The position numbers and the translations under genes were made by a program. From Bryoerythrophyllum caledonicum (lineage: Eukaryota > Streptophyta > Bryopsida > Pottiales > Pottiaceae), in NCBI GenBank assembly GCA_963971425.1, contig OZ020516.1:33220199-33284198 (forward strand): a DNA stretch of 64,000 nucleotides, in the 5' to 3' direction. Every line of letters begins with the position of its first letter. Within the stretch, counting starts at the first letter, position 1. Under the pieces are notes generated by a model, which made no database searches, was not told where the DNA came from, and saw nothing but the letters and a program-made list of their open reading frames with translations. Of this stretch, positions 1,504 to 55,118 are shown one piece after another.

Positions 1504-2148
1504 TTGTTTGCGAGTATCTTAGTGTGTTTTCATTCTTGTTCTTTTCCTTTTTCTGTCTCCAATATGCTGCCTGGATATGTTTGTCCTCGTGGCGAGGAGC
1601 CAAGTCTGGTGATTGGCACATCGTTCAGTGGTCCTGGGACCTCTGAACCATGCACAAGCAATCCAGGCAGCAGTGTCTGTCCTGTACGTATCTCACCCCC
1701 GCCGTCGCTTCCATTAATTGTTCCGGAAGCTCAACAATTCCTGCCCGTCTTCGTCCCACACTTGCAGGATGGGCGCATTCCAGACCCGGAGCAGTTTCTG
1801 CTCCACATCGCCGCTGCCCAGCTCGCGTTATCGGCGGAGGATCAGCAGGCGCTTCTGGAGCTTCAAGCGCGCTCCTCCTTCATCAGTCTCAGCCCGGGTG
1901 CGCACCCTACGAATAGGACCGCCGCGCGGCCCAAGCAGGCCGCCGCGCAGCACAAGAAGACCACCGCGCAACGCAAGAAGGCCGTCGCGCAGCGCAAGAT
2001 GGCCGCCGCGCAGCCCAAGGAGACCGCCGCGCAGCCCAAGGAGCCCTTCCACGGCTTGCGCCAGCGCTACGGGAGGCCGTTGGTCGTCGAGATCCGCCCC
2101 TCCCGCGTGGGCACCCAACTCTGGCTCGGCACGTACAAGACCGCCTGA
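1504..2148 (+). pseudogene. AP2/ERF transcription-factor fragment, domain cut short
   Basis: A 214-codon frame whose last ~33 residues resemble the first part of a plant AP2/ERF DNA-binding domain: FHGLRQRYG, then VVEIRPS, then GTQLWLGTYKTA, matching the usual YRGVRxRxWG...AEIRD...GTRxWLGTFxTAEEAA. The frame stops exactly where the amphipathic helix (EEAARAYD) should begin, so the helix packing against the DNA-binding sheet is missing. Upstream, residues about 139-180 are a basic, alanine-rich run made by an 18-bp repeat. The N-terminus is unremarkable and the true start is uncertain; a later ATG at 1564 (MLPGYVC) is possible. AP2/ERF proteins are nuclear plant regulators. This is either a truncated copy or one exon whose partner I cannot find. 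The domain call is fairly firm; functionality is doubtful. Confidence 0.6.
1917..2048 (+). repeat. 18-bp imperfect tandem repeat coding an Ala-Gln-Lys run
   Basis: About seven units of an 18-bp sequence (GCCGCGCAGCCCAAGGAG and variants) encode repeated (A)AQ(P/R/H)K(K/E/M)(T/A) hexads just before the AP2 domain. It is GC-rich, unlike its surroundings. Confidence 0.8.
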
Positions 2149-2481
2149 TATATAGGTCTAGATAATCTATATAACCCTAGATCTAAATGATATCGTCAAA
2201 ACCATGTTGTTGAGGAGGATCACAAGCATTTGTTGTTAGAACATCCTCTCAGTAAAGACACGCCCAAACAAACGGGTGTTAAGTTCTTGATCAAGATGCG
2301 AAAAGTGCGGGTTGGGCTTCCAGTAGTCAAACCAATTCAAACCCACAACTCGATTTGCTTCATAGGGAGTCTGTTGGTTAACCCCGTTGGTGAACCCGCC
2401 GTATGTTCACATTGAGTTCCCAGAGTGTTCCCATGTAGATCCTATGATCTTTCCACCTTACTTCCAAAGAGTTTACAGTAA
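2149..2481. other. Non-coding stretch up to the TAA target duplication
   Basis: No supported gene. It ends with the TAA (2479-2481) repeated at 4955-4957, which brackets the TIR element between them. Confidence 0.4.
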
Positions 2482-9050: not shown

Positions 9051-9990
9051 CTAGTTTTCGGGATTGTGGATGAGCCATTGTTCAAACAATTTATCTCTTA
9101 AAACTTCTCCCGCTGCTCTGGCTCTGTCTCCCTCGCGAAATACTGGTTGTCTAACATTTCCAAATCCCTGCAACTCTCCATCTCTGCAACTAACTCCAAA
9201 ATCAGCAGGCTCAGGCATACCCCGCTCCTCACAGTAGTTGTGTAACCAATAACAAGCAACAGTTACTCTAGCTGCTCTATCAACTCTAGGATTGAAATTT
9301 TTCAACAGACGCCATTTATTTTTCAAAGAATCAAATGCATTCTCTATCACCACCATCCTGGAGTTCATAAATTTGTTGAACCTTTTTTTGTCTTCATCTT
9401 GGGGCGACTTGTAGTTCTTCTGCAAATAGGTCCTAATAGGATAAGCAGAATCATCAATCAAATACGGAGTGCACAACGTGTCTCAAACATCCACAACATG
9501 GGTCTGCAAAATGGCGCGGTTCCTCAAGTCCTTGTATAAACTGGAGACTTTAAACTGCCCTCCATCATGTACACCCCTAGGCTCACTTGCACAAACATTC
9601 CAGAAGACCTCATTTGCATCGCAAACTCCTTGCAAAACAATAGAGTGGAACTTTTTCCTGTTAAAGAAGTCACTTTGAGCTAGAGTCACTCTTCTACTTC
9701 GTCTATCGGCAAGAGGAATGTGTGTGCCATCAATTGCACCACATATGTTTGGTAATCTCATGATGTTATGAAATTCATCGATAATGCCTTGCAAACGATC
9801 CCCTGTAGGTATGCTAATACATCAAGCGAACAACTTGTTCTTATTAGAAAGGATGTCACAAACTATGTCTACGTACTTACGAATAGTAGACGCTCCAACT
9901 TTAAGACGATCAGCAATGTGGTAAGGAGAATATCCATGCACAAGTCTATAGAGAACAGTTGCAACAATTTTCCTAATCTGCATCTGAACT
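9051..9990 (-). pseudogene. PIF/Harbinger DDE transposase, broken
   Basis: Read on the - strand from about 9990: an N-terminal helix-turn-helix (LYRLVHGYSPYHIADRLKVG, then ASTIRKYVD), then the DDE_4 nuclease with the first Asp in GAIDGTHIPL, the second in GVHDGGQFKVSSLY, the YLIDDSAYPIRTYLQKNY motif, and the Glu in VVIENAFDSLKNKWRLLK. The C-terminus is DKLFEQWL. The order is typical for PIF/Harbinger transposases, which cut and paste DNA at TWA sites. Two in-frame TGA codons (near 9480 and 9827) interrupt one continuous frame, so this copy cannot make full-length protein. The first-exon start upstream of the HTH is not resolved. Confidence 0.85.
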
Positions 9991-9992
9991 CT

Positions 9993-10180
9993 TACAGGAT
10001 TTTGTTAGCATGAGCAGTGGTGCACTTGGCAAGCGCAAAGCATGGACAAACTGCAAGCATTTGTATTATGTGTATCGATACCTTTGCAAGGCAAACTGTG
10101 AAGACGACAAGTTCATACACGCTCCAAGTCTCAGCTTCGATGAAATACAGTTGCTGCTTTGCAATAGCAATCTCTAAGAT
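9993..10180 (+). pseudogene. Fragment of a MULE transposase: SWIM finger and C-terminal tail
   Basis: The + strand frame reads QDFVSMSSGALGKRKAW, then CKHLYYVYRYLC, then HAPSLSFDEIQLLL and stops. It lines up with the end of the transposase at 16588-20911 (FKEMSRKSLGRRPQW, CKHLYFNFTIVC, HAPSFSFNKIKCVI). Only the second half of the SWIM motif (C-x-H) is kept, so it is a remnant of a different copy of the same family. It abuts or slightly overlaps the N-terminal end of the Harbinger transposase, marking a junction between two elements. Confidence 0.65.
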
Positions 10181-11435: not shown

Positions 11436-11876
11436 GTGGTGTTGTCTAAAGTACTATCTATTTTAAATGTCGTTGATACAATGTACATTTGCGTACTTCA
11501 TCATCATATTAGAAAAATCAAGTGAATTTAGTAGGGAGAAATTGAATGATGCACGTCCGTGCACCCTTTTCAACCCTAAACTTGTTCACCCACAAATTTT
11601 GTTCATCTATAACTCTATACATCCATAATAATTTTCATCCATAAAAATCATCTATTTCTAAATTGGAGAGAGCAGTTTGGCCATCAAAGAAGGTGCAAAA
11701 TCTAACCTTATATTTGAGCAATGACCGGAAGTTCAGTCCAGTAGGAGGCCATGTAGAACTTTACTGTCATTGAAGACATTTTGCAGTCCATGGTTATAGG
11801 ATTAAAAAAAGTTCTATTAATAGTGAAAAATTTGGGAATATACTCAGAATCAATATATTCCGTACTAAAAAAAGGC
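11436..11876. other. Non-coding stretch inside the partial MULE
   Basis: No gene supported; AT-rich, running up to the heptamer array at the element's end. Confidence 0.35.
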
Positions 11877-11930
11877 TCACTGCTCATGGCTCATTGCTCA
11901 CCGCTCACCGCTCACATTCTAGCATCGTTG
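11877..11930. mobile_element. Right terminus of a second, partial MULE (heptamer array)
   Basis: About six units of GCTCACC/GCTCATG/GCTCATT-type heptamers end in CACATTCTAGCATCGTTG. Read inward on the other strand this gives GATGCTAGAATGTGAGCGGTG, which resembles the termini of the 12692-28859 element (GCTATCTTG followed by GAGC.GTGAGCGG). LINE homology begins immediately after, at 11931, which fixes the end of the element. Its left end is not visible in the window. Confidence 0.65.
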
Positions 11931-12691
11931 AAAAGTGGACCAGTAACAACAACATAGACAATGAACTCTCTACAAATTTCTGGAAAAACCCTATCATCAC
12001 CGATTCACAAATAACATGCCTCATCAAATTCCGTACTGGACAATACATGGGAAATGCCCGAAAACAACTCTTCTTTGGAATAGAAAGATTCCCATCCATA
12101 ACATGCCCAATATGCACTTCCACGGATCCCGACACATGGCTACATGTGCTTCTTAAATGTCACAACCACCACATACATGCCCTAATTGTCAAAAGACATA
12201 ACAAAGTCGTAAATATGGGAAATATGTAAATTAATCACCTCCCATAACATATTGAGATGTTTTATCCTCATGAATGTCGGCACCTTTAACAACAACCCAC
12301 AAGAAAATACAGTGCCACCATGGCTACTTCCATGTACATGTGTAACTCAAAGATGCCACTGCAATGCTAGACTCAAACCGGACATACTATGCGTTAGAGG
12401 CCAACCATACAATGACCCCCCACCCGACCACGAAAATCAAAACTACCTCATTCAATTCATCGAATTTACATACTGTAATGACAGATTCTCCCTAGAAACA
12501 ATCGAAAACAAAATCAACAAATATCAACCCCTTATTGATGACATCACTGCCCTTGGATGGAAAGTGGAGCCTCTTATTGTCATCACAGCTGGCGCTTGTG
12601 CCACAACCTTTATCCCATATATAAAAAACCTAGAAGATACCTTCAAAATTCCTATCGATACAATTACAATTACTTTCAAAAATATAAACAT
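11931..12691 (+). pseudogene. LINE copy A, ORF2 C-terminal part (5' half of a split copy)
   Basis: Encodes the same C-terminal region as 53940-54686: NELSTNFWKNPII, the zinc-finger-like CPICTSTDPDTWLHVLLKC, and the restriction-endonuclease-like block KPDILCV...IQFIEFTYCNDR...KYQPLIDDI...PLIVIT. A frame change near 12225-12250 separates the two halves. The LINE is cut at 12691 by the large MULE and resumes at 28870; across the join the sequence aligns without a gap to the corresponding stretch at 54684-54722. The 5' side is cut by the MULE terminus at 11930. Confidence 0.85.
12682..12691. repeat. 10-bp target-site duplication, left copy (ATATAAACAT)
   Basis: Identical to 28860-28869. It directly flanks the first GG of the element's left TIR. 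MULEs typically duplicate 8-11 bp. Confidence 0.9.
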
Positions 12692-12790
12692 GGACGAAGC
12701 TATCTTGTGTGCGGTGAGGCATGAGCGGTGAGCGGTGCGGCGTGAGCGGTGAGTCGTAAGCGGTGAACAATAAGCGGTAAGAAAAAAGTT
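12692..12790. repeat. Left terminal inverted repeat with TGAGCGG heptamer array
   Basis: GCTATCTTG is followed by about nine units near TGAGCGG (12708-12778), then GGTAAGAAAAAAG and GGTAAAAAGTTTTT. The same order (GCTATCTTG, heptamers, GCGGTAAGGGG, TAAAAACTTT) is read inward from the right end. The left array is roughly twice as long as the right. Confidence 0.85.
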
Positions 12791-12859
12791 GGTAAAAAGT
12801 TTTTGAAAATTGTCACTTTTTTACTATATGAAAGTAACTTTTTTACTATATGATAGTAT

Positions 12860-15800
12860 TCAGAGTACAGGAACTGAAATTATGTTACCAAACATAATCT
12901 GAAATAAGGATTCGAAGACGGCCTAATGACCGAAGAAAGAGCACAACAATTTCACGTAAATGACCGTGGACCTGTAACATGGTTTAGGGTCCTTTAAAAA
13001 GTGTTTAGGAGCCATATCTGAACGACGATCCGAGACGACCATTGTCGTACCACGAATTTCAAAATTTTGTTAATTAGTTAGTTAGGGATCTTAAATATGA
13101 CTTGTTTGATAGATACAAAAGTTAGTCCTAGACTAGTATTAACCTTTAAGATAGATTAGAGTTAAGAAAGTTGGAAGGTATTTCAAAAACCTTAGAGTGG
13201 ATAAAAAGTAGTCTAGGACCCGATCCTAGCTAGAGCAGAATAAGGAGCCCGGGAGGGGAAAACTCGAAGCTCAATAGTTGGAGCGGAGTGCAAGGAGCCC
13301 GGAGAAAAACAACCTGAAGCTCAACAGCTGGAGTAGAGTATGAGGAGCTCGGAGGGAAAGAACCCGGAGATAACAACTGAAGCCTGAAGGAAACTTCTAC
13401 GGCCCAAGCCCGGACTTCTTATAGAGTTGCAACCTCAAAAGTGAACAACACCAGCCAAGCCCGGAGGTCGACATCAACACAAGAGCGGAGGCCAGCATCA
13501 ACGGAGCCTGGAGGCCAACACCAGTAGAGCCGGAGGCCAGCATCAACGGAGCTCGGAGGCGAGCACCAACGGAGCCTGGAGGTTGACATCAACACGAACC
13601 CGGAGGCCAGCACCAGCGAAGCGCGAGGAGGAAGTCCGAGCAGTCAACCCAAGCAGGAAGCTGCTCACGAGCTCCACCCAAGCTAGAGGCCGATACAAGA
13701 ACAAACAGCGGAGCGTGAGGAGGAGGTCCGAGCAGGCAACTCAAGCAGGAAGCTGTTCACGAGCTCCACCCAAGTTAGAGGCCGGGACAAGAACAAGCAG
13801 TGGAACGCGAGGAGGAGATCCGATCAGGCAGCCCAAGCACCGGAACACGAGGAAGGAGGAGATCCGAGCAGGCAGCCCAAGCACCAGAGCTCGAGGATCA
13901 CCGCGGAGCAGGCTAGGAGCAGGACTTTAAGGGAGAGGAAGAACCCCGTAAGGACGACGGCGAGGAACATGAGCAAGCAGGCGGGAGGAAGCTGGCCCGG
14001 AAATCTGGCCCGGAAATCTGGCCCGGAACACTGGTCCTGAAATCTGGCCCGGAAAACTGTCCCGGGAGTCCCGAACCTTGGGAGAGGCATAACTCCCTCA
14101 ATACTTGTCCAAATGGGGCAAGTGATGAGTCTATCGGCATCTACGCGACGAGGAGATATCAATCAAGTGGTCGATCGTCCCGTTTGGATACGGGAAGAGG
14201 AAGATACACGGCCCGGAAGGCTGGCCCGGAAAGTTGGCCCGGAAGGCTGGCCCGGAAAACTGTCCCGGGAGTCCCGAACCTTGGGAGAACCATAACTCCC
14301 TTGATACTTGTCCAAATGGGATGAGTGAGGAGTCTATCGGCATCTACGCAACGAGAAGATGTCAATTAAGTGGTCGATCGTCCCGTTCGGATGCGAAACA
14401 GGGAAGATATGCTGCCTAGAAGGTTCAGCTCGGATGTGAGCTCGGAAGGGAGCTCGGATAGGCAAAGGAGGACGACCACCACCGCCACGGCTAGGAAGGC
14501 AAGCCCGGACCGGGAAGGAGAGAACGAGACCGGACCAGGAAGGAGAGGAGGTCCGGGCTAGCCCGGACTCTTAGCGACCAAGACGAGGAGCTCCATTGCT
14601 GGAGAAGAGGTCCGGGCGAGCCCGGACTCGTGGGGATCAAGACGAAGAGCACTTGCGACGGCAGCGCCCACCCCGACTTCAAGCCGGAGTTCCAAGAAGC
14701 GCAAGAGGAGGGATGAGCGGAAGAGACTCGAGGATCTGGCCCGGAAGTAGGCCATGATCTTGGTTTGTAGGTCACTGTTCAGTCCGGGATTTGGCCCCCG
14801 GTTGACTTTGGTTTTGACTTGGTTTTGCCTTGGGTTTTGTGTAATAAGTTACCACTGACGGTGCACGTCGTGTGTAGTGGCAGCACCGCCGCCAAGAGTA
14901 GTTATTGTCACCGTTTTTAGTTAGAAGGTATCGTTTGAGTTTGGACTCTTGTGTGAGTCCTTCGCAGTATAAGAGAGGAGTCTCGTGGCCCCTCTCTTCA
15001 CTGCTTGATGTGTGTATTTGCTTTCAGAGTTAATTCTAAACCTACGCTCTGAGAAGACCTTCGAAGGTTGGAGAGCTCGGATTGCATATATGACTGTGAG
15101 TGCCATTTCAAGTAGTCCACTCCTCAAGTCTATACTAACTATCTAATCATCGTTTCCTTGTTCCATCAAGTAGATTAGTCCGGGTGGATGGGAATAACAG
15201 GTGAGGTGAGAGGATAGTTAGTAGGGGCGTGACTCTAACTCTAAACCGTTACACTTGTTTCCTTGTTCCATCAAGTAGAATAGTTGGGGTGGATGGGAAT
15301 AACAGGTGAGATTGTACGTGTCTAGGGAAGGACGAGGGGGGAGTGACGGATGGATAAGGGTCCCAATGAGTCTTGAGTGACCTTCCGGCGTACCGATTGG
15401 TGTCGGTTGTGAAGACTCGTATCATCCCCTGAACATCTTACCTCCAGCCGCATTGGATGTGGAGGGAGACTGAAAGGAGGACGGATAGTGGGCGGGTAGA
15501 CCCCTTGCTCACTTACATTACGCCACTCACAGTTTCGGAAACACGGGTCTAACACCCCCTCGGGGGGATCTCAGTGATGCCATAACCATCTAAGTGAGTG
15601 AGTAGAGGTAGAAGGAGAGAATGGGAGGAAGAGTCTCGGTTACTTGTGTCAAACACTAAAATCTCTGTGAGTCCTCGGATCAACATCCTTGGTAATACAA
15701 CCCCCCCCCCGTGTGCCGGGTACGCATGTACTCAGGCTGTCCACATTGTGCATAGGTGTTACTATAAGTCTCAGATCTAATCTAAGGTTTGAGTAATAGA

Positions 15801-16200
15801 AGTCTTTACTACCCGTGCGAGGTAGTACGTACAAAGATAGGACGTACAAAGGTAGGAGGTACGAAGGTAGGACGTACGAATGTAGGACGTACGAATGTAG
15901 GACGTACGAATGTAGGACGTACGAATGTACGACCTACGACGTACAAGGAGACAACACGCGTACGAAGAATGGGAATTGGTGTAATTAACACCCAGGCTTT
16001 GTGATCTAAACCCTTATTCCCTCCTTTCTTTTTGATATACCGATTGTATAGTTGACATGGTATAGATTTTTGGCTTGGTGTTAGTCGTTGTAGTTCTCGG
16101 TGACTCTCTGTGGGAACGATTACCTTAAGGGTATCTTTGTGTTAAGATGTGAATACTTGCCATTACGTACTACAACAACCATAAACTACCTGGGGGGTAA
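12860..16200. repeat. GC-rich nested repeat block, perhaps an old LTR-type element remnant
   Basis: No credible gene; frames here are by-products of repeats. Layers seen: a ~57-bp GGAGC(C/T)CGGAG repeat (13230-13400), a ~29-bp GGAGGCCAGCATCAACG repeat (13460-13625), a ~103-bp repeat (13630-13910), a 13-bp GCCCGGAAATCTG run (13990-14060), a ~190-bp duplication (14077-14220 and 14270-14400), a 54-bp duplication (15157-15210 and 15259-15312) and a 15-bp GTAGGACGTACGAAT minisatellite (15835-15945). GGTGACTCTCTGTGGGAACGA near 16099 resembles a retroelement primer site. I infer a long-LTR-type fossil inserted in the MULE, but no paired LTR or target duplication was found. Confidence 0.4.
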
Positions 16201-16305
16201 TGTCGGATACCAAAAAGAATGAGGTCTAGGATTTGATTCCTTGCTGTAAAATCTTTACGAGATAGCCGGTAGTAGGCAATTGCAGCAACGACTCCGACCC
16301 CGGGG

Positions 16306-16470
16306 AAAAATAAAGTGAAAAAAAAACAAAAGAAAGAAAAAAAAACTTGAGAAAAAAAAATCCTGAGGAAAAAAAAGTGAGAAAAAAGTGACAAAAAAGA
16401 GAAAAATAAAGTGAAAAAAAAGGAAAAAAAGTGAAGATAGAAAAAGTGAGAATTTTTTTTGTCAAAAAAA
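16306..16470. repeat. A-rich low-complexity tract (GTGAAAAAAA-like)
   Basis: Repeated GTGA/GAGA followed by A-runs on the + strand; no coding meaning. It lies just past the 3' end of the - strand transposase gene. Confidence 0.8.
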
Positions 16471-18235
16471 CATTGAGCGATTCAAGAACAGTTCAAATTC
16501 TTGCCAATACAGCGGTGGCCTTGTAGTCTCACTGTCTCTTACATATTATAGAGAATAGGTACAAGGGTTACTTCGTCATATCAAACACTAGGTGCAGCCT
16601 TCTTTCTGAAACAAGACTTCGATAACACACTTAATCTTATTGAAGCTAAAACTAGGGGCGTGCAGAAAGACATCCACCTCACGGTCTAGCTCACAAACAA
16701 TGGTGAAATTAAAATAAAGGTGTTTGCAGTAACACCACTGAGGACGTCTGCCAAGAGACTTCCTCGACATCTCTTTGAAAGAAAGGCACTCACAACTAGG
16801 AAATTGACTGATAGAGAGCATGTAGTTTGGAACCTTAGTTATGGATTTGGACTCGAACGAGAGAATGCAGCCAAAGGTAGGGTCAAAGAACATAAGAAGG
16901 TTACTGACTTTTCCAAGAACAGAATGCGCAGATGCGCAGGTGTTCCGATGTCTCGTGGTTGGGGCCTTTGGATTCCGACGAATGTTCTTGCCAAATCTTC
17001 GCTTCGGATGCTCATCTGAGTTCACTGGAGTTGGAACAGATTTCAAATCAAACAATGCACCATCCTGGGAGAACAACTTCCGGGGAGAGAGCATTACCCG
17101 CTCGGCGAGTCAAAAACCGGCATTTCCAAGACATAGAATCTCGGCCTTCGTAAGGGACGTGCCAGCTTTCACCGGCCAAACATCAGGGACCGTTGGCTTA
17201 GAAATAACCCAGTCCCTCTTTGAACCCATCACACAACAATGGATGTCATCGTCACAAAAGGAAAAATGCATCCTTTCAAGCCTTGTCTTCTTATGGTTCT
17301 TCATCATGCCACTGTAGGTCGGTGTGGCAGTACTCTTGTTGTTCTGCACAATTCGAGCAGTACACTTCTTCTTTGTACCAGCCTCTTGTGCAAAACGTGC
17401 TTTCACTGATGTCCTAGGTAGCCTTGCAGTATGCCATTTGCTTTTGTCGCAGACAGTCTCCAAAACATCCATAATATGGGTTACCCCTGTTGAAGTTCAT
17501 GTTCATGGGAGACTAACGAGGTTGGCTGGAGCTTCCCCTACTGGTGAATACACACACTCGTCAGTAGTAAGGTCCACAGTAATTCGTGAAGACGCCCTTG
17601 TCGTCACCCTGGGACGTGAAACACTGATTTTGTCTGGACGATGTGAATCGAACTCCGATCCTGGAGGAAGGTCAGGCCTCCGTTTCAGGGGGAGGAAGAC
17701 TTCCTCTCCTTCCAAATGCGGAGGGCGAGTGCAAAACTCAGCAACTCCAGGCATATTACAGAAAGCCTCATGAAGTGCTTTGGAGTTCCCCGAACGTTGA
17801 GCAATGCGTTGAGCAGAACGAAGTTGAAGCTCTTCCTTCCCAGGCCCTTGCCCTCCTCGCTCACCTTTCGAGAATTGATAGCAAGCCACAACTTGCATGA
17901 ATGCACAAACCATGTCATCAATAGTCGCAACGTATAAATCATTACCACGCTTTCCCAACTGCTGCAACCACTTATTGTGGACAGTCTCCGTTAAATTGCA
18001 AGATGGCATTTCAGCCAATTTAGAATCTGTAAGTTCCTGCAGACCTCAATCAAGAATACTTGAGAGAGGAACTTGTAAAAAAAGAAGCATAAAATGGGGA
18101 TTGCGACCAATCCACAAGAGCAAGACAAGGAAGCTAGACAGCGTACAAAGAAGTTCATCCAAAATTCAAGGTCGATCTTCAGGAAAATGAAGAATTAGTA
18201 AGGCCATTTCAAAGAAAAAAGTACAACTTCAGGAA

Positions 18236-18257
18236 GGTGTGCCGGCAACGGCACACC
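18236..18257. repeat. 22-bp palindrome, spacer GCAA
   Basis: Perfect 9-bp arms GGTGTGCCG and CGGCACACC around GCAA. It lies in the intron region of the transposase gene. Confidence 0.95.
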
Positions 18258-18576
18258 CATTTTCCAAGCTAGAAGACACGGGCTGGCTGGTTAAAAAAAT
18301 AGGAAACAAGAATCTGGAGTCAAGGGGAAATTGTAAGTCTATTAAAAATTGCTGTGATGAGTGAAAAAAATCACCAAAAGAAGGGACAGAAGACAGCGCA
18401 TCAATTGTGAAGGACTCCAAACTAACGCAATGCACTTGCATAATTTGTTCTGCCGCTAGAGGCAGAGAACAATGTTGGGCTCACATCAAGCGGTGTAATC
18501 AGTCAAGACAGGCGTGACTTTATAGGCGGATAAGTTTGCATGAAACCAGTAAAAGGCTTATGTAGCACAGCAAGTA

Positions 18577-18665
18577 GGTATGCCGTTGGCGGCACACCCC
18601 AAACAAGTGGTACAGGATTCACTATCAAGGTCAACACAGCAAGGGTGTGCCGCTAACGGCACACC
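18577..18665. repeat. Two 22-bp palindromes, spacers TTGG and CTAA
   Basis: 18577-18598 has arms GGTATGCCG/CGGCACACC (one arm mismatch) around TTGG. 18644-18665 has perfect arms around CTAA. Both lie in the long transposase intron (about 18796-18037). Confidence 0.95.
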
Positions 18666-20911
18666 TTCTTAGACAACAAGATCCAGAGTGCCGTTACAAT
18701 GGTGCCCAAATATGTCAATAACTGGATATTAAATTAAAATGAATTCAGCGATTATATAATCAATGTGGCATGAATGAAGAAAGAACATACCGATACCACA
18801 AACCCACCCCATTGTCGATATCGAAAATGCCAGAAGGCTAGCCATAAATCAAGACGTACGGCACCAGCATCAGATGTTGCACCCGACGATAACCACCACG
18901 CGTTGATCGCCAAGTACTTAGCTTTGGCTTCCTCCATTGTCTTTGCATCTTTGTATAGCTTGCAAAGCTGACGATGTTGCTCTTGAAGGTCGGTTCTTAT
19001 GTCAGCCTTCGTATGCTTCTCCAAGGATTGAGTCCAGTGAAAAAGGCACGTTCTCTCCCGATTGTCCATCGGGACTGACGCATCACCGCTCCCGTAAAGA
19101 ATGTGGACTGCATTCCAGTTGGCATGTACACTATCAACCATGAATCCTTTGAATGAAACTGTCGGAACATTGTGTCGTGCAGCAACTGCATTCAAGTTCT
19201 TCCAAAACACTAGCTGAGCTTTGACGTCCTCGGATTGCATGTCACATACGGCAATCGTCATCACACGGCAGTAGGTTGAATCATACACATGACAACCCAT
19301 CGTGGTCAACCCCTTAACTCGTTTGACATGGTCAAACATGATCCAGGAATCTTCAAGGTCTCTTCTAGGTTGCATTCGCTTCACAAGATCTACGCCACTG
19401 CTAGGACCAACTTCTGCCATCTTGAAGACGAACACCTTGTCCAAATCGGCGCCTTGCCCTGGAAATCTATTCTCCTGAATAAAAGCCCAGTTGCTTGATT
19501 CCCGAAGTTTAGTGATGCTATCCATTACACCAAAGCGTCGCAAATATCTAAAATTTGTAACCTCGTTTCGGATAGTAGGAGACGTCATTTGCTTAAATTT
19601 CTCTAGGACCGGAATTAGTTCGTCTAAGACTAGAGGCTTCTGTGAAACTTCCTCTGGACACAGCAGTAGCTCACCGAGAAACTCTTTACTTGCTTCTAAA
19701 ATAATGGCAGAGTTTGTAGCAGATGGGGTACGCTCCACTTGCTCAGAAATCAAAGTCTTCAGCTTTGTGGATGAATCTCGACAGTTGCCTAATTTTACCG
19801 GATGCTCATGAGTTCCAATATGGACACATAAACGGGACATGGTGTCCTTCCCCAACACATAGTAAATTTTTGCAGGGCAGGTTTCTAAGCAGATTGGCTA
19901 AACTCGGCAAAGTTTGCAGACAAGTGTCGAACCAGCTGGAGAAGCCCCACCGACCCCGAAAATTGATGAGGACGTGCCCTCCCATTCGGTCTCATTAACG
20001 TTTGACACTCTATTTTTCCGCTCTAAGTATTCGCATTGAGGATTGAGACATTGCAAGTGTCCCAAACAAGAAGATGTCCGAAAGGTGAGGTTAGAATCAT
20101 TCGCAATGTGAGTGGTCACGGTTCTTGTCCAAGTATGTCCGTCATGTTTCTTATCCATACCCAAGAGCGACCCAGCTTGTGATGAAGTAATTCCCTTCCC
20201 AAGGGGTGGAAGCTCGAAGAGAACATCTCCATTGAAAGCTGCTGGAAGGAAGTCAACCTTCTCAACTCTAATGGTATCAAAATCTATCTTTGTTAAAACA
20301 AATTTTGATCTAGATCGAGAACGAAGATTACGTAGACAGTTGATAGTACTAGAAGATTGGACGGGAATAGGAATCACAGTGGGTTTGGGTCTTGGAGGTA
20401 GAGAGGAAGTGGCAGCCGTTGCCGGAGGCATGGCCGGAAGTGACGATTTCCTCTCGAATTCAGAGGGACTAAAATCGAGACTGCAACTGTCGGAGTCATC
20501 GCTAAAGATGTGAATCGAGTTCTCTACCGGTTCTATTTTCACTTTCTGCATCAAAGGTGTCACCTGGATTGTAGTGGTAGACAATTTAGGTGTTAAGGAA
20601 ATTGAAGGGGAATCGTCAGGAACCTCCCTAGGTCCATACACTCTGTACTTTCCACACTGAAGTGGCCAGACTACGACGTTGTTTTGATTACAAGATGACT
20701 GAACTATAGTGTGTGTGAGCTCTCCGGTAATCTCGTCAAATTCCTCTTTCTCAACATTCAAGGACCCCTCAATGATATGGAAATGCTGGCTTAAGTGAAG
20801 AGAACTAACAGTCGCTATTCCCTCAGAGTCACTAGTGAAACAGATCGGGACGCATGCACTATCTCTACGGATAACGACGGATCCCACCTCATGATCCGCC
20901 AACGAAGCCAT

Positions 20912-22190
20912 TCTATGTAAACAACAAAGCTGCAAATGAAAAGAATCAGGACGGAACAAGGGGTCCTCGTTGTATTAGCTTGGAGGTGAAGCATGGCATG
21001 GTCATATCCTCATGTGTTCAAAATTAATGCATTTGCTAGAAGTACGGTGGTTTGTGCCAAAACATATCTCTTGCTGTCAAGACCGGATTCATGTGCACCA
21101 AATTAAATGGTGGAGATGAGTAGCTGATGTCATTGTGATAAATTGGAGTCTAGTTAAATTAGGAATTCTGATTTAAGGTCATTCCAAATCAGAGGATATG
21201 AGAAGTACGCTCAACAGAATTGAATTATATTGAGACCGAAGTGGTTTGGTACACTACATTTGTGATAGTGGATTTTATAATGAATATGACGGTGTCATCT
21301 AAAATATGGGGGCACTACAATGGAGTGTATCTGGAGGTTAGATCACATGAAGGTGAATTGAATGAAATTCAAAATGGCTATGCCTGCTCAATGCATTTAT
21401 GCTGGCTGGAGCTGGTGCTTGCAAGGTGGGGCACAAAGTAATGAGCAGCACTATTAATCCAAGGTTTTAAGAGAATCTTCCAGGAATGATAAAGCTTATG
21501 TCTTTTCAAGCAAGGCACAATATCTGAATCCATTCCACATAGACTAACGAGGTTAATCTTTGCCAATGAGCCTCTTGCTATTATGAAAAGACGAAAGCAG
21601 AAGCTCTATTTTAGTGATCGGAAAATTTTGATGAGAAGTAGAGGAGTGAGAGGAATTGCGATGGGAAAGCCCAAGGATTCTTTCTCTGAAACTTCAAAGA
21701 AATTAGAGTTTGATGGAGTTCAGAGTGGTGTTGATAGGGAGAGAAGGACTGGGCTAACTGTAATTTCAGAATGTTTCGATGGGAGCCGTCATTTCCCGGA
21801 ATCAGAAAATCAACTTGCAGATGCTGAAATGAGTGAGGGGACCCAATTTAAACCGGAAGTGAGGGAAATGACAGCTTACTCAGGTACTTGAGAGGATTGG
21901 CCATAATGGTTTTTGTGAGCGAACTTCGTGATGGACATGTGATTAGAGATTGCTTATATGTGTGACTTGAGTTTATGTTAAAGGTGAACTTCGTTGAGAG
22001 CGAGTTTGCGAATAGAGCGCGATTAGTGTTATTTCGTCTGAAGTAGATTATCTCGCTACAAACTCCGTCATTCTCTATGCTGGACGTCCAAGGATTGGTA
22101 AAACTTTTGTGCGTGAACGTATATTGATATTATGGCGACTAACCTAATTCCAGAAATAGTTTTATGGACATCGGGCTTAGAAGAACGCCG
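20912..22190. promoter_or_regulatory. Divergent intergenic region between transposase and methyltransferase genes
   Basis: The two genes read away from this ~1.3-kb stretch, so it should hold both promoters. No TATA box can be assigned with confidence. The frame at 21583-21891 has no recognised family and is probably chance or leader sequence. No member of the palindrome family is found here. Confidence 0.4.
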
Positions 22191-22735
22191 CACTAAGTTG
22201 TTGTTTTCGGACCTTGAAAAAGTTGGGGTTGTAGGAGAGAGCGAAGAACGTACGGGAGGAGCTGGCAGATCGTTGAAGATGGACGGCGGGGAGGCGGATT
22301 CGGCGGCGCAATCCACAGGTGATGTTCGCATGTTTTTTGTGTGAGGATTGACTGCCTTAGGGTTTCAATGATATGGCAGCGCGATCCTCGTAGCGTATGA
22401 AAAGAACCGTGATCCACATGTGAAATTCGCTTGTTTTTTATAGAAGGTATGACTACCTTTAGGGATGTGGCAGCACGATCCTTGTTGCGTATGAAAAGAA
22501 CCGCGATCCACTTAAAATGTTCGCATGCTTTTTGTGTGAAGTATGTCTGCCTTAGGGTTTCAGGGATATGTTCGAGCGAACTGCATAGCGTTTGTAGAGA
22601 ACGTGCAGTAAGTAGTTGTTTTCTGACCTGGAAGTTGGAGTTGTAGGAGAGAGGGAAGAGCGTGCAGGAGGGGGCGGCACCTCGTCGAAGATGGACGGCG
22701 GCGAGGCGGTGTCGGCGGTGCGATCTACAGGTGTG
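22190..22735 (+). repeat. Tandem duplication of the methyltransferase first exon and its leader
   Basis: Two copies about 412 bp apart: leader, then ATG GAC GGC GG(G/C) GAG GCG, ending in a CAG|GT donor. Exon 1a is 22279-22318 and exon 1b 22691-22730; both are 40 nt, so both leave the same splice phase. Between them a ~95-bp block (GGCAGC.CGATCC..GT.GCGTATGAAAAGAACCG) is itself repeated near 22374 and 22468. Either copy could splice to the acceptor at 23636. Confidence 0.75.
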
Positions 22736-22830
22736 ATGTTAGCTTTCTATTTATGAGGTATGACTGAGGTAGGGTTTAAGGGGTATGGCAACTCGATCCG
22801 CATAGTGTTTGAAGAGAAGCTTGCGCGGAA

Positions 22831-22915
22831 GGTGTGCCGCAGCCGGCACACCATCCCCAAGTCCCTATCCACATTGACAGGGACTTGGCAGATGGAGTGC
22901 CGGCAGCGGCACACC
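22831..22915. repeat. Compound palindrome: two 22-bp palindromes flanking a hairpin
   Basis: 22831-22852 (spacer CAGC) and 22894-22915 (GGAGTGCCG arm, spacer GCAG) bracket CCAAGTCCCT...AGGGACTTGG. The whole ~95 bp, with outer GGAAGG/CCTTCC, is one large inverted repeat. It lies in intron 1, downstream of exon 1b. Confidence 0.92.
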
Positions 22916-22983
22916 TTCCGGGCAAGCTATTCCAGTTCTTTTAGAAGGCTCGCGGAGGATGTTGGATTGACGCCTGAACAACA

Positions 22984-23023
22984 TTTGCGAAGTCTGTCAA
23001 TGTGGACAGCGACTTCGCGGATT
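22984..23023. repeat. Second hairpin related to the one at 22860-22890
   Basis: GCGAAGTCTGTC AATGTGGACA GCGACTTCGC forms a stem-loop. Its loop TGTCAATGTGGA matches the complement of the loop in the 22860-22890 hairpin, so the two are related hairpins in intron 1. Confidence 0.75.
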
Positions 23024-24771
23024 TAGTGCCAACGAACCTAAACCTTCGGAAACATTCTCGAATTCAGGATTTTGATATCCGATCAAACAGACAGTCTGGC
23101 GTTTAAAATAAGTCACCAATTCTTTGCTATTCTTAGTCTCTTTAGTCTCGCAGTAGTTGTTGAAGTTGCATTTGATGTGTCTATTTTTTGGGGCTGTGTC
23201 TTGGTTTACGTACATTCAAGTTCTTGCCTCGGATAGATGCTCCATTTGTTGTAGTTAGAGTCCGTGAATCTGTTCTCTCTGCCCTCGACTTAAATCCTAA
23301 AAGATGACATCCTCTTTGAATTTCTGAATTTAAAATCGTCTTGAATTGCCGTATAGCATGTAGATTTCAATACTGATTGCTAGGATATTATAGCACAATG
23401 TCCTTCATTTGAATTCTCCTTTCTTCTTTCTGTCACTCCCCACCATGTCATCAAATGTTTTGTTTCATTGCATTGCAGAGATGCAAAGCCAGTCTCATAT
23501 TTCGGTTTGAGGAGTCAAACCAGATACCGAAATAGAGACTCACAATTCATTGAACTCAGCTATGCACCTATCAAGTAATCTGCTAAAAATTTTTATTGAC
23601 CTGTGATTTTACCACTATCAACTTTGTTTGGGCAGGGAGTTCTCCCGCAAAGGAACTCAATGATGATGGGGCAGAAAGTGAGGATGTTGAAGTTTCAAGA
23701 TCGGAACGGAAATCATCAGAACCACTCTCGGCTGCGAATTTGGAGAAGCACATGGATGATCTCGTTTTAAAAGAAACAGTGAACACATCAGCGCTGCTTG
23801 ATGGACTCCAATTTCAGCCGAAGGAGAAATCAAAGCTTGACATCCCTCTATGCCGGATGATTGGGCTGCCAATCGTTCGACCTCACTTGAAGAACAATGT
23901 CATGGGGCTTGGTTCCCACTTTCTGAAGAACGGATACACGGAAGGCTCAGGTGTTTTCTATGTTGCAACTGAGAACCACAAGGGGAAGACTGTAGACGTC
24001 TCAGAAGAAATCTTAAAGAGTTGGAGTCCAACCTGGATTGCTGCAAACGAGGCATTCGAACAGAGGTTGAATTCGAATCCAGACCTGCGAGTGTTTTCAA
24101 GAAAGATGTTTCATGTTTGGGATGGCAACCATCGGCTCCAGGCATGGTTGCCGATAATAAACCGAGATCATGGTGATGATCCCAGTTGGCATTTTGCGGT
24201 CGAGTCAATTCTGCTGAATGTGAATGGCTATGTTGCAGTACTTCTTTCCGCGCTGCATCAAGTAAACTGGTAAGAATTTTTGGTGTTAAAACAACATTAT
24301 CTTCTGCATCTATTTTACAATGAGTCTTAATGGCCTATTTATCTTCATATGTAGGCTAAACCAGAAGTTCTTTGTTACAACGAATCTTGTCCACAAGCTT
24401 TACCGCATTCAAGGTATGGCAAGGCAGCCTCTGAATTACTTTGAAAAACTTGTATCAAAAGCCAAAATCAATGCCACTGAAGCGAAGCAAAACTCTGTGA
24501 AGCGGATGTGGTACACGCTCACATTGAAATTCTTAAACAGTGTCCTCTATCAAGTTAGTCTTTGAATTCATTTGCTCAATCCTAAATTCCTTGTATCACA
24601 TCAGAAAGAGTTAGGTGAGTTATTGTGGACCGAGTTGTTGTTTCGATCTTGGCAGAACTCCATTTTCATGCGGATTAGCTTGAATGAGATTGTTGTTTTA
24701 AACAAATTTAAGTCTGCCATTGTTGACAAGTGATGCCAAGCTCGTTGCGCTGGGAAGCTTGTTGCGCTGGG

Positions 24772-24932
24772 GGTGTGCCGCCAGCGGCACACCTCTCAGC
24801 GCGCTCACTTCGGTTTTAAAATGAGACGTGGTGATCGCGCTGAGAAGTGTGCCGCTGGCGGCACACGCCCAGCGCAACGTGCTTCTTTGTGAAAGCTCGT
24901 TTGTACTGGAGGTGTGCCGCCAGCGGCACACC
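24772..24932. repeat. Cluster of three palindromes in methyltransferase intron 3
   Basis: 24772-24793 (spacer CCAG), 24847-24866 (arms GTGTGCCG/CGGCACAC, spacer CTGG) and 24911-24932 (spacer CCAG). The first two lie in larger mirrored units (TTGCGCTGG...CTCAGCGCG and its inverse), so they are inverted copies of one ~44-bp unit; the third shares the CTCAGCGCGC tail. A decayed half-site (GTGTGCCGGCAA) follows at 25044. Confidence 0.95.
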
Positions 24933-26601
24933 TCTCAGCGCGCTTACCGCGGTCACAACCAGTTTTACAGGCCATTTGGACATCAATTATTTAAGTAGTT
25001 AATCCCTGATTCCCTGGATTTGGATACTTTAGAAACTTAAGGAGTGTGCCGGCAACAGCAGAGACGCTAATCAGAATCGTGTTTGTTCAATTACGATGCA
25101 GCTATCTCGCCAGTATTCCGTGATCAGTCTTTTAAAATTTTGCTTCAAATGTTTGTCAAATTTGTCACAGCAAGAGATCGGTGAAGCAGCTGTGGTGGCG
25201 GGGCGGAAGTTTGCTGAGAAATTTCCCAATCCTAAGGAGTGGACCTCAACTAATGCGCACGATTTCGTCAGAAAAGCTGTGGAGAAGATGAAGTTATCCA
25301 CACTTTTGGAGCTTCGGAAGCAACTTCCGATTGGTGATCCCAAGCACACTCCAGCATTCCTTAGTCAAGTGAAGCTTCATTACAAAGCTCATGATGACGA
25401 CGCAGAGATGACCCAAGAGAAACTCAGCATGCTTGTGACGTCTGCCATGGATCCTGTGATGAAAGTAAAATGGCTACAACGTTGGAATAGAGATGGAAAT
25501 CTTAGAGAATCTCTTAGGTTTCCGAAGTCAAAGTTTTCCGATAGTGATTTTCCTGATTGGCTTCACCGCGCTACTTGGTAAGCTGAGGTATACACTGTTC
25601 ATTTATTGAGACTTCTCTATTTAATGTTCAAAGTGTCATTCTAAAACGTTTCATTCTTTTGGTATCTTTTGCGAAGCAGAGAAGCTTTTGGAGGACTCTC
25701 TCTTAGATATTGGCGTTGAAGTGAATTACAACCCTGATATTGGCGACCCAATCACCATAATTTTGGACTATATTGAGGAGCTGCGGATTCAACTGTGGAA
25801 GACGGCATTTTTTCGAGAGTTCAACGTGGACAAGGGAGTTCACAAGAACTATGAACCAGCGGATCAGTGCGGGTTCCCATCTGCTCGCGACGTACCTTAT
25901 ACAGGTACTTCAAGTTTATTCTGATGTTGGCGAGGGTTGTGACCCGCAACCCTCCATTCTTTGCATCGTACCTTGATTCCAAGAGCCCATCCACCATGTT
26001 ATCTGAGGGAATCCAGGCTGATTGGGGACCTCAGCACTGGGAGCGCTGCAGATGGTATCTGGACTGCCCCGTACAGAAACCGCCTCATTTCGACATCTCT
26101 CTGCGAGATGGCATTCAGCCTGAGCTGATTGGGGTGGAGTCCAATGTCGAAGCGGCTGCTGAGGCTACTAAAGCTAAGGGTAAGGGCAAAGCTGCCACAA
26201 AGAAGGCGCGAGGATCTTCATTTCGCAACCCTGAGGTTGAGGTTGTTATTCCATCATCAGTCGCCACACCCGACTCTTTTCCTGCTACTGCTGAGAGCTT
26301 TCCACATGTACAACCGTCTTCGGAGGTTCCGGACTCCCCTCGGCATCAGCCGTCAAAGAAGGTGAAACAGAAGGCATTTCATGACGCCTTCTCTCCTCCG
26401 AGCGCGTCTGCTCCAAAGATGGGTATCAGTATTGAACTCTCATCTGTCCAGGATATGATGAATGGTGGGAAAGACCATCCGTGCATGATTCGACTTAACG
26501 AGTTCATGCTGAAGGTAAATCCGCTCCATGTTAACTTCTACCCTCTTATATGCTTCCCATCAAGTAGTTCCTTCTTTCGAATTAATTTATGATCTTGGTG
26601 G

Positions 26602-26619
26602 AGTGCCGTTGGCGGCACT
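26602..26619. repeat. 18-bp palindrome, spacer TTGG
   Basis: Arms AGTGCCG and CGGCACT around TTGG; a shortened member of the same family, in the intron between 26514 and 26776. Confidence 0.9.
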
Positions 26620-28097
26620 TTAATTCTGTACTTTTGAGTTTTCAAACACGATTGAGTTTTGTTTTAGTCCCCAACATCTCTTGGGGAATTCGGTAAGCTT
26701 CACCCATTGAATGAATTCATTTGTATTCTCTCCCTCATTACTCATTCTAATATTCATCAATTCTTGTTCGTGCAGGTGTGTCTTCCCACTTCAAACCCGG
26801 CCCGCAGCGCAACATGTCCCCACCGAGGTTTTGATCTCATTCTCGGAGACATCCCGAAGGGCCTGTGGGTACCATGGATTTCATGAGATGCAAAGGACAT
26901 CCCACCATGGAGTGTTTATTCTGAGCCGATAGTTGAGGCCCTCTTTAAGTTTGTTGATTTGTTCCTTCAAGAACATGGATGCATTATGGTTATTATTCCT
27001 GAGTCTGTGCAGATCCGCACCGACGTGAGGTCATACGCTGCTGCATACAATTTCAAGTTACTTCGCGAGTGGTAGGGTGTAAACGGATTACCATTGGCGT
27101 TGCCCACTGATCCATCAAAGAAGGTTAGTGAGTATTTATCAATGACAGTGCTAGGTTTTTTTATTACCGTCCACCTAATTACGATATTCTTCATTGTCTT
27201 TTCTTATTCAGACCCACCATTTTCGGATCCTCCTCGATGTGAGGAACGCGTTACCATTGGAGTCCTTCACGTACATTGTGAATGCGTAGCTGTCAAAGAC
27301 TGGTTGGGGAGTAGAAGAGACCAACGTCCTTCTCAATCACAACGGCTTCACTACCCAGTCTATGGGAGGTAATGTTCCATGGAGGGCTGGACGGGAGAAG
27401 GGCATCATTTTTTACCACATGCTATTCGAGGCCCTCACGAAGCTGGGAGCTATGATTTTTGATGCATTTGCTTCTACAGGTATCGCTTCCTCATCTATTA
27501 TCCTGTCATTTTCATATTTATTCTATCATTTCATTTTATTTCCTCTCATTTCATTTTGATGTTCTTCCTATCAACAATTCTAATCATTTCTGGTATTCTA
27601 GGAAACTCCCTTCGCACGTGTCACGCTGCTGCTCGGCATTTCATGGGCTTCGAATCTGATAAGGTTGTTTTTGAGGCGGTGTTGAAGCCACTTTTCATGC
27701 CCAAGCCTCCGCGATTCACTCTTGTTCTGCCCGCCACCGTGGATCTCACCATTGATGACGATCCCCCAATCCGGAAGATCACAAAGAAATCGATTGAGTA
27801 AGTAAGTCTTGTTTTTAATTTTACTTCTGTAGTTTCCTTATTCACTCATATTAATATGTGCTGTTGCTTTCTGTTTTCAATTTGATGGCGTTGGCTGCTT
27901 CACCGGATCGGGATTTCTTGCTCCCTTCGTATGCCGGCCAAGCTGCAAACGAGATGGCAAATGTGCTCTGCCCTTCGTCTACTTCCACTTCCTCTAGTTC
28001 TGGTTTTACATTCAACGACTTCCTTGATCTGGAGGCTTTAGAAGAGTCCGACATTTTTCTTTCATCGTCGGATAGTTATTGTAACTCTTCTTCCTAG

Positions 28098-28798
28098 ATA
28101 CTTTTCGTGGGTAGCCTATTTCTTTGCAACAATTTTCTTGGTGACACAGCATCTCAAAGCATTTTCCCTCAACTAATATCATTGTTCCATGTATTCTGAG
28201 TTTTCCTTCCTTTGTTGCGGATATGGCCCATTCTACTACAATATTCTCCCCATGACCACTCTTTCTTCTATCTCGTGAAGGTTCGTATTACGCTTGTATT
28301 CTCATATCTTTAACTTTCTACTTCACTCTAAATCCACGCCAAATCCACTGCCAGTGCTTCAACACCCTTAGCCATTATTCTTTCACTTCCTCACATCACA
28401 ACAATTTTCAATAATGTTTGTTATACTTACTGCTCTTCATTGAACCCCCAAAATCATTTCAGTTCATTATTCGAACGAAGTATTAGTAATTTCCCTTCTC
28501 AGTTCTGACACTCTACCCTCTAGGGACCTTTGCTAACACTCCGATATCCACTTCTTTTAACGGATATCGTAGGAGTTTTGTTGGATGTCACCTTATACTC
28601 TAATTCTAAGGCCAGTTTTTGGGCTTTCCACAACGGACAACGTCTGCAGATACAGGGTTCCCTCTAATCTCTTCTTCTTGAGTCAGATCTAAAAATTTAT
28701 TATATTTCTCTTCACGATAACAGACTCATTCCTATATTATAGAATTTGAGGTCCCCTTCAATTTACTATCAGTAACATTTTAGAAGTAAATGCACTTC
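28098..28798. other. 3' flank of the methyltransferase gene, nothing recognised
   Basis: Mixed AT-rich sequence between the last exon and the right TIR. It presumably holds the transcript end. No repeat or gene is supported. Confidence 0.4.
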
Positions 28799-28859
28799 AA
28801 AGTTTTTACCCCTTACCGCTCACCGCTCACCGCTCACTGCTCGCAAGATAGCATTCCCC
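28799..28859. repeat. Right terminal inverted repeat of the large MULE
   Basis: AAGTTTTTACCCCTTACCGC, then about four GCTCACC-type heptamers, then GCTCGCAAGATAGCATTCCCC, the inverse of the left terminus, ending directly at the target duplication 28860-28869. Confidence 0.85.
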
Positions 28860-28869
28860 ATATAAACAT
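28860..28869. repeat. 10-bp target-site duplication, right copy (ATATAAACAT)
   Basis: Identical to 12682-12691; the next base resumes LINE 3' sequence. Confidence 0.9.
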
Positions 28870-53300: not shown

Positions 53301-54686
53301 CCAAAATTTAACCCTGCATACAGTTACTACACCGATGGCTCCTTTAAACCACCAGAACAAATTAGTCCAGGATCTTGGAGAAGAGAAAAAGCTGGCTATG
53401 GCATCTACAGCTCTATCAAAGAAATCATGCTAGCCAAAAGACTCCATGGACTGCAAAATATACTCAGAGCAGAACTAATGGCCATTCACAAAACACTACA
53501 AATCATCACAACAAAATACAATGATGAACCCGCACATATATTCACCGATTGTATAAACGCACTCTACCTACTTAATACTCAAATAACACACCCTACCCTT
53601 CACAATAGCCACCCCGACCAAACCATATTAACATCAATGGTACAAATGTTACAAAACCGTACACAAATCACAACCCTTCACAAAGTAAGAGCCCATGCCA
53701 ACATTGATGGCAACGAACAAGCAGACAAGCTTGCAAAAGAAGGCCGAGAAAAAACACACAAAAACGCCAAAGACCCTCACGAACATGCCCATGCCACCCC
53801 ATACTACTTTCAAAAAGAAGATTGGCCTTCCAAAGAAGATACCCCTGACAAAGGCCCAATTAGATTTTTGGGCAAATATCTCAAAAAACAAGACCTCTAC
53901 AACAACCTGGACGCAATCTCAGAAAATATTCCTAACATAGAAAAATGGACTAACAATAACGACATAGATAATGAACTCTCTACAAACTTTTGGAAAAACC
54001 CCATCATCTCAGACTCACAAATAACATGCCTCATCAAATTCCGTACGGGTCAGTATATGGGAAACGCTCGCAAACAACTCTTCTTTGGAATAGAAAGATT
54101 TCCATCCATAACATGCCCCATATGCCCCTCAACGGACCCCGACACATGGCTTCATGTACTACTCAAATGCCAAAACCACCACATTCACTCTCTAATTATC
54201 AAAAGACATAATAAAGCGGTATGGGAAATTCGAAAACTAATCACCTCCTACAAAAAATCGAGATGTTTCATAGTAATGAACGCCGGCACTTTTAATAACA
54301 ATCCACAAGAAAACACGGTCCCCCCATGGCCTCTTCCATGCTCATGTATGATCCAAAGATGTCAGTGCAACGCTAGGCTCAAACCGGACATTTTTTGTGT
54401 CAAAGGTTTACCATACAATGACCCACTCCCCGAGAACATCAACCAAGACTACACCATTCAATTCATCGAATTTACATATTGCAACGATAGATTCTCCCCG
54501 GAAACAATACAAAACAAAATAGATAAATACCAACCCCTCATAAACGACATCATTGCCCTCGGTTGGAAAGTGGACCCCCTTATTGTTATCACATTCGGCG
54601 CTCGTGCCACCACCTTTATCCCGTCTATGAAAACTCTTAAAGATACCTTCAAGATACCCATTGATACAATTAAAACTATCTTTTAA
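50396..54686 (+). pseudogene. LINE 1 ORF2, last part: RT core, RNase H, zinc finger, restriction-like endonuclease
   Basis: RT core: EGFRAERSTARQ, YVDFKNDFGSIDH, IPIERGTIQGDTLSPYLF and AAYADDLATI (the YxDD box). A thumb region follows (52045 frame). After a stretch of broken frames (about 52.05-52.77 kb), a 639-codon open frame holds RNase H (YYTDGSFKPP, RAELMAIHKTLQ, HIFTDCINALYLL, RAHANIDGNEQADKLA), then CPICPSTDPDTWLHVLLKC, then CSCMIQRCQCNARLKPDI and, after about 20 residues, IQFIEFTYCNDR and KIDKYQPLINDI...PLIVITFGARATT. The PD...E-x-T...K-x2-KY layout matches the restriction-like endonucleases of R2/NeSL/Dualen elements. The same block is kept in LINE copy A, which suggests selection on it. 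Several breaks are present. Confidence 0.82.
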
Positions 54687-55118
54687 AACATCAACACCAT
54701 CGCTATTCAACATGCCATGTCTATTTTACTACATAAACGCAAAATCGAAAATAACCAAGTCCTCCCTGATACGCAAGACCCCCCTTAGAAACTTTGCCAC
54801 CTTGTCTCTTCCTGGTTGGCTGCTTGTGTGGTTTTGTTTTTTTGTTGTTTAGATTAGTTTGGTCGTGGTTGGTCGTTGTTGGTTGGTTTCTGGCTACTCG
54901 TCACATAGTGTCTACCCTCGAAAGGGGGAAGTAGTTCCAGTTCGCTAATTCCTTGTCCGGTGGGCATGGTCTTTGCAATGGAACGAACAGACACTTTATT
55001 CATGCCGGTTCTCTTCGGGAACCGGCGTTCTTCTTCCTTGTCCGGTGGGCATGGTCTTAGTAGTGGAACGAACAAACACTTTATTCACGCTAGCCTCCTT
55101 CAGAGACTGGCATTCATC
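54687..55118 (+). other. LINE 1 3' UTR with two 85-bp tail repeats
   Basis: After the ORF2 stop comes a UTR shared with LINE copy A, then two tandem units (54951-55035 and 55036-55118), each with CCTTGTCCGGTGGGCATGGT, TGGAACGAACA and CACTTTATTCA. Iterated 3' ends are common in LINEs that lack poly(A) tails. Confidence 0.75.

Follow-up and report, generated by a model that had tools for sequence, protein, structure and literature searches.

Few settings are known, in the literature that we searched, in which transposons carry genes acting on DNA or chromatin marks. In the VANDAL elements of Arabidopsis, which are named as MuDR (PMC12730594), the protein VANC binds short motifs lying in intronic and intergenic parts of the element that encodes it, and causes methylation to be lost (PMC5735166); fungal DNA transposons (KDZ and others) carry a TET/JBP dioxygenase, and the same work also cites Phytophthora MuDR families that carry a SET histone methyltransferase (PMC12730594); dinoflagellate and charophyte retrotransposons carry C5 cytosine methyltransferases that have been shown to methylate CG (PMC5890265). 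Here we describe a 16,168-bp insertion occupying positions 12692-28859 of a 64,000-nt stretch of Bryoerythrophyllum caledonicum DNA (contig OZ020516.1, 33,220,199-33,284,198 of the forward strand, assembly GCA_963971425.1, 437 Mb), the whole of which is called the window below. As to its anatomy we have hardly any doubt: the insertion is a decayed copy from a large family of the Mutator superfamily that has been active recently and whose copies typically harbor two divergent genes, one coding for a DDE/SWIM transposase and the other for a protein with a ParB-like DGNHR region and a predicted beta-class methyltransferase fold.

The comparison with the described systems reveals likenesses and differences. 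As in VANDAL elements, an accessory gene lies beside the transposase gene; ParB-like and methyltransferase-type domains, however, are not mentioned for VANC in the sections of PMC5735166 available to us, and an anti-silencing role would here be assigned by analogy. The TET/JBP carriers are likewise DNA transposons with a DNA-modification-type gene, but the enzyme is another one, the hosts are fungal, and MuDR is outside the carriers named in the abstract of PMC12730594. The C5 retrotransposons are also mobile elements with a DNA-methyltransferase-type gene, whereas in our case the carrier is a DNA transposon and the fold appears to be that of a beta-class amino-methyltransferase with a non-canonical motif IV. 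No Mutator element with a ParB/amino-methyltransferase-type gene came up among the open-licence papers that our literature searches listed, and a term search found neither “methyltransferase” nor “methylase” in the main text of a Mutator survey (PMC6446971). The accessory gene of this Mutator family has an architecture that we found described nowhere in the literature searched; the family was recently amplified, and most of the copies examined carry this gene of prokaryote-like architecture.

The insertion can be considered real, because its flanks, once joined with one copy of the duplication, match a paralogous empty target (54.4-54.8 kb; 80-81% identity) with no gap over the junction, in a test made within one window. 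From a reading of their frames, the flanks belong to an element resembling a long interspersed nuclear element (LINE), a second copy of which ends near 55 kb. The 10-bp sequence ATATAAACAT stands at both borders of the insertion and occurs nowhere else in the window. Of 16 bases compared between the two ends, GGACGAAGCTATCTTG and GGGGAATGCTATCTTG, 12 are the same, and both ends continue into GAGCGGT heptamers, the local alignment of the terminal inverted repeats (TIRs) scoring 46 against a maximum of 32 reached by 5,000 random window pairs. These TIRs are short and heptamer-rich; other copies have ends of the same kind, and the final TAGCATTCCCC of the right end is common to all six other copies whose right end was read. 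VANDALs, unlike the elements described here, are not known to have TIRs. The duplication length, 10 bp in the window and in two complete copies, falls within the range of 8-11 bp given for Mutator-like elements (MULEs; PMC6446971). Together with the inverted ends and the DDE/SWIM transposase, it confirms the Mutator-like nature, the precise duplication and the matching ends that a first-pass annotation of the window had claimed; the two divergent multi-exon genes that it had described are also present, but both are broken by stops that it had missed.

Searching the genome with P0001, an intact relative of the transposase, yielded 62 scored places (the best 62 of 3281 candidates), many of them with open frames. 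For 20 of these 62 transposases (ranks 1-21 minus rank 13, C40) the 10 kb upstream were fetched, and at 19 of the 20 loci both the ParB exon and the motif IV exon were found upstream and in divergent orientation; the transposase of the single locus devoid of the partner gene (L018, contig C454) is interrupted by five stops. The 19 paired loci belong to subfamily A (11 copies) and subfamily B (8 copies). When the genome was searched separately for the ParB exon, 150 places were scored (the best 150 of 1762 candidates), 82 of them free of stops. When the best 62 transposases and the best 150 ParB exons were joined by their coordinates, 15 further pairs emerged among the 42 unfetched transposases, all of them divergent and 2.7-3.8 kb apart (about 0.1 expected by chance), and no other orientation was found among them. 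Altogether, 34 of the 62 listed copies (19 of the 20 fetched ones and 15 joined by coordinates) have the gene pair in the same orientation.

The family is real and recently mobile, since near-identical copies share an end that is followed by different flanks and complete copies carry 10-bp duplications. Over 10 kb, L021 shows 99.86-99.92% identity to nine other copies; of these ten, five stop at the same base, with the same right end TAGCATTCCCC, and continue into five different flanks. Two complete copies were delimited: the one on C1 (14,371 bp, duplication GGTGACGGCT) has long open frames in both transposase exons, and the one on C2 is 13,865 bp long (duplication CCACATAACA), so that all three bounded elements, the window one included, show a 10-bp duplication. 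Several full-length divergent pairs with similar ends and duplications of 9-10 bp, for which the first-pass annotation had proposed to look, are therefore present in the source genome, and the ParB/methyltransferase-like gene is a recurrent part of the family.

A question that arises concerns the role of this second gene. Since apparently intact, recently spread copies carry the same pair, it seems to do some work for the element, perhaps by handling or protecting the element’s own DNA. We suggest that the encoded protein might load on the element DNA through its ParB-like domain, that the methyltransferase fold, devoid of DPP(Y/F/W), might bind DNA or S-adenosylmethionine and would not methylate in the usual way, and that the two domains might jointly keep the element DNA accessible, as VANC does for VANDAL elements. 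Taken as a whole, the idea of an element-encoded DNA-binding/anti-silencing factor of the Mutator family, the likeliest of those considered, seems to us evenly poised between right and wrong. Its anti-silencing mechanism, put forward tentatively, is somewhat less probable than that; it is only an analogy with VANC, since all 20 related upstream regions lack the palindromes that resembled VANC-type sites. A stronger version, according to which the family would have made a bacterial-type ParB clamp and a catalytically altered methyltransferase fold into a means of self-recognition, and the ParB-like domain would load and spread on the element’s own DNA while the methyltransferase-type domain would shield or re-mark it, thus blocking host silencing and letting near-identical copies spread, appears unlikely. 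The existence of near-identical, apparently intact copies in one genome makes an escape from silencing via a ParB-type domain and a methyltransferase-like fold directly testable.

Concerning the ParB-like domain, all 19 genome copies have an unchanged DGNHR, which is also present in the window; we take it to be a ParB-type motif, the ParB/sulfiredoxin-like superfamily presumably having a conserved motif of the DGxHR type. The assignment rests on this motif and on a DndB match in 2 of 22 members, and should be regarded as weaker than that of the methyltransferase-type fold; no ParB-type match was found in NCBIfam or PADLOC, nor any sequence match in the PDB. A ParB-like domain would suggest DNA clamping or bridging, which, like the retention of the divergent pair in near-identical copies, might also fit a transposition accessory acting in reintegration, end pairing or copy control, with no silencing role. 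A transposition accessory of this kind has been proposed for the second gene of maize MuDR. The transposase of the present family, however, comes with a DDE core and a GCM-like region of its own, and we are inclined to doubt an accessory role of this kind, even if it deserves to be kept in mind.

The methyltransferase-type fold of the second domain is supported by profile comparisons. The Pfam family N6_N4_Mtase matched, below the cut-off, both the window copy (E 0.0027 for the domain and 0.015 for the whole protein) and two genome subfamilies (E 5.6e-5 and 0.019). When an alignment of three family members was compared with PDB sequences, DpnA (6e-5), CcrM (0.0019) and N4-cytosine methyltransferases accounted for all five hits up to E 10, and hhalign of the same alignment with three phage methyltransferases extended over 198 columns (P 3.2e-8), placing DIPK opposite DPPY. 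The protein would thus have the beta-class amino-methyltransferase fold with the motif order IV then I, sharing this order and its profile similarity with the beta-class DNA methyltransferases DpnA and CcrM, whose catalytic DPPY is instead replaced in the element’s protein. The catalytic motif IV of the beta class is (D/N/S)PP(Y/F/W). The canonical DPP(Y/F/W) was found in none of the 19 genome copies, which read DIPE (11 copies) or DCQE (8 copies), and it is also absent in the window (DIPK). Motif I reads DWKASTG or DCTAATG in the genome copies; by our reading, its first G is replaced by S or A. The acidic residues of motif I (D) and motif II (E) are retained in the copies read. Since motif IV is non-canonical in all 19 copies, ordinary DNA methylation by this protein is doubtful. 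Hence, of the ParB-like module joined to a beta-class N4/N6-methyltransferase that had initially been proposed, the fold stands and the methylating activity is in question. A DNA amino-methyltransferase that is active despite its unusual motif IV and marks the element, in line with the first-pass annotation, might be reconciled with the conserved fold and motif I/II region, the retained acidic residues and the constraint on the exons in subfamily B; the missing DPP(Y/F/W) and the altered G of motif I argue against it, and we consider it rather improbable. A working methyltransferase encoded by the window copy is not supported, both genes being broken there.

The ParB/methyltransferase-like gene is, as far as codon comparisons can tell, maintained at least in subfamily B, given the low ratios of nonsynonymous to synonymous substitution rates (dN/dS), even though the DIPE/DCQE domain lacks the standard catalytic motif. 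In 11 of the 12 exon comparisons of L033 with L019, L032 and L037 (ParB exon, linker and methyltransferase exons), dN/dS was 0.085-0.27; the twelfth, exon E of L033-L032, gave 0.386 with five stop-containing codons. Near-identical pairs were noisy (L033-L036 and L033-L031, 0.205 to 0.926, two values undefined). If true, this would represent a methyltransferase fold under constraint after the loss of its canonical catalytic motif. Host gene fragments are reported as frequent in Pack-MULEs (PMC13317346), and a chance passenger captured by the element in this way might be imagined; yet the gene is multi-copy, recurs beside the transposase in the same orientation in 34 of the 62 listed copies and is constrained in its protein sequence in subfamily B, unlike a captured fragment with no role in the element, which makes such an origin very improbable. 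A host gene, or a gene belonging to another element nested in this one, is scarcely credible at all, since each of the three bounded elements encloses it between the same type of ends with a single 10-bp duplication. Of the 150 listed ParB-exon places (best 150 of 1762), only 15 have a listed transposase (best 62 of 3281) less than 10 kb away, a figure that says little with lists of this scope.

Several observations weigh against a DNA-binding/anti-silencing factor as outlined above. The 19 paired loci fall in two subfamilies and are not 19 independent cases, and 27 of the 62 listed transposases are without a call on the partner gene, the lists comprising the best 62 of 3281 and the best 150 of 1762 candidates. 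The phage methyltransferases used with hhalign were picked since they had matched the domain of the window copy, and the altered motif IV does not prove that catalysis would be lost. In the case of the ParB-like domain, the DndB match in 2 of 22 members is weak (E 0.0059 and 0.085), and the structure model is poor (predicted local distance difference test, pLDDT, 48); a structure search with this poor model gave no match. Moreover, L021-L035 showed dN/dS of 0.29-0.79, L035 has stops in three of the four exons tested, and L037 has one stop in the motif II stretch; some copies are therefore decaying. Lastly, the palindrome GTGTGCCG-N4-CGGCACAC, which matches ten times in the window (up to 3 mismatches, six matches exact; 0.05 expected) and always inside the element, in introns or between genes and outside exons, does not occur in any of the 20 related upstream regions, a scan that left out the introns of the corresponding transposases. 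The palindromes were consequently rejected as family-wide binding sites, and with them the suggestion that the gene marks them throughout the family; we kept them only as a trait of the window copy or its subfamily.

The features of the window copy are listed in Table 1. The decay of this copy, as read from its frames, involves both genes. Exon 1 of the transposase is 61% identical to P0001 over 707 aligned positions and exon 2 is 40% identical to exon 2 of L001; the two stops in Table 1 stand opposite residues of intact relatives, and two further ones (17505 and 17499) fall in a stretch with no counterpart in L001, which may be intronic. The protein is a DDE transposase of the Mutator/IS256 type, with 9% sequence identity to ISCth4, a bacterial insertion sequence of the IS256 family. 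The SWIM zinc finger pattern CxC...CxH near the C terminus was read directly in the window, L001 and L038; a Pfam search gave no SWIM match. L001 (positions 1-4101 of CADCWO010000080.1) is filed as uncultured cyanobacterium and holds a two-exon transposase of the same eukaryotic family (open frames of 719 and 476 aa), which suggests a contamination of this bacterial bin by eukaryotic DNA. The ParB/methyltransferase-like gene has at least seven exons (23626-27803), coding for the ParB-like part (VWDGNHRLQAW), a linker and the methyltransferase-type domain; each of its three stops is opposite a residue in relatives, and a frame change is probable. The subterminal repeat had 62 genome matches with E<=0.001 (40 scored of 380 candidates), many of them beginning near query base 352. 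Imperfect repeats of 90-102 bases lie at 22220-22819, between the divergent genes.

Table 1. Features of the inserted element and of its empty target (window positions).
Feature	Position	Strand	Remarks
Left 10-bp target site duplication, ATATAAACAT	12682..12691	.	exact copy
Left TIR, GGACGAAGCTATCTTG then GAGCGGT-type heptamers	12692..12745	+	
Subterminal repeat, common to other genome places	13043..13692	+	genome search
Transposase exon 2, broken by an in-frame stop (17112); contains the ETVHN motif and the SWIM-like CxC...CxH	16590..18042	-	
Three palindromes, transposase intron	18237..18664	.	
Transposase exon 1, broken by an in-frame TAG (19900); contains the N-terminal domain, the GCM-like region and two of the presumed DDE residues	18791..20911	-	
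Two palindromes, between the divergent genes	22832..22914	.	
ParB-like exon, DGNHR motif, open in window copy	23626..24269	+	
Exon B, ParB/methyltransferase-like gene	24355..24552	+	
Four palindromes (one with 3 mismatches), intron of ParB/methyltransferase-like gene	24773..25063	.	
Exon C, ParB/methyltransferase-like gene	25169..25578	+	matched in 19/20 related regions
Exons D/E, ParB/methyltransferase-like gene; probable frame change at about 25855-25905	25676..26514	+	
One palindrome with 3 mismatches, later intron of ParB/methyltransferase-like gene	26601..26620	.	
Exon F, methyltransferase motif IV region (DIPK); stops 26884, 27073	26776..27123	+	DIPK aligned with DPPY (phage methyltransferases)
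Exon G, motif X to motif I (DAFASTG); stop 27287	27212..27479	+	Pfam N6_N4_Mtase domain E 0.0027
Exon H, C-terminal part of methyltransferase-like domain	27602..27803	+	
Right TIR, ending CAAGATAGCATTCCCC	28808..28859	-	
Right 10-bp target site duplication, ATATAAACAT	28860..28869	.	exact copy
Paralogous empty target, without insertion	53940..54963	+	LINE-like by reading

Other repeats and transposon-like sequences lie in the window. A second related Mutator remnant (10001-10174 and 11871-11930) retains part of the transposase C terminus, with 50% identity to L001 along 58 residues; its right end is of the same kind and coincides with the start of the LINE homology (11927-11930), 0.76 kb from the main element. 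Directly adjoining this fragment, on the minus strand, is what by reading is a Harbinger-like transposase remnant (9060-9995). Two 300-base repeats (39870-40169 and 49292-49591), 100% identical and 9,422 bp apart, flank gag/pol-like frames and, on this reading, probably delimit a young long terminal repeat retrotransposon. A 0.7-kb repeat is found at both ends of the window (1-693 and 63350-63987, 84% identical), and an open frame at 37130-37804 resembles, by reading, a DDE transposase of the pogo/Tigger type.

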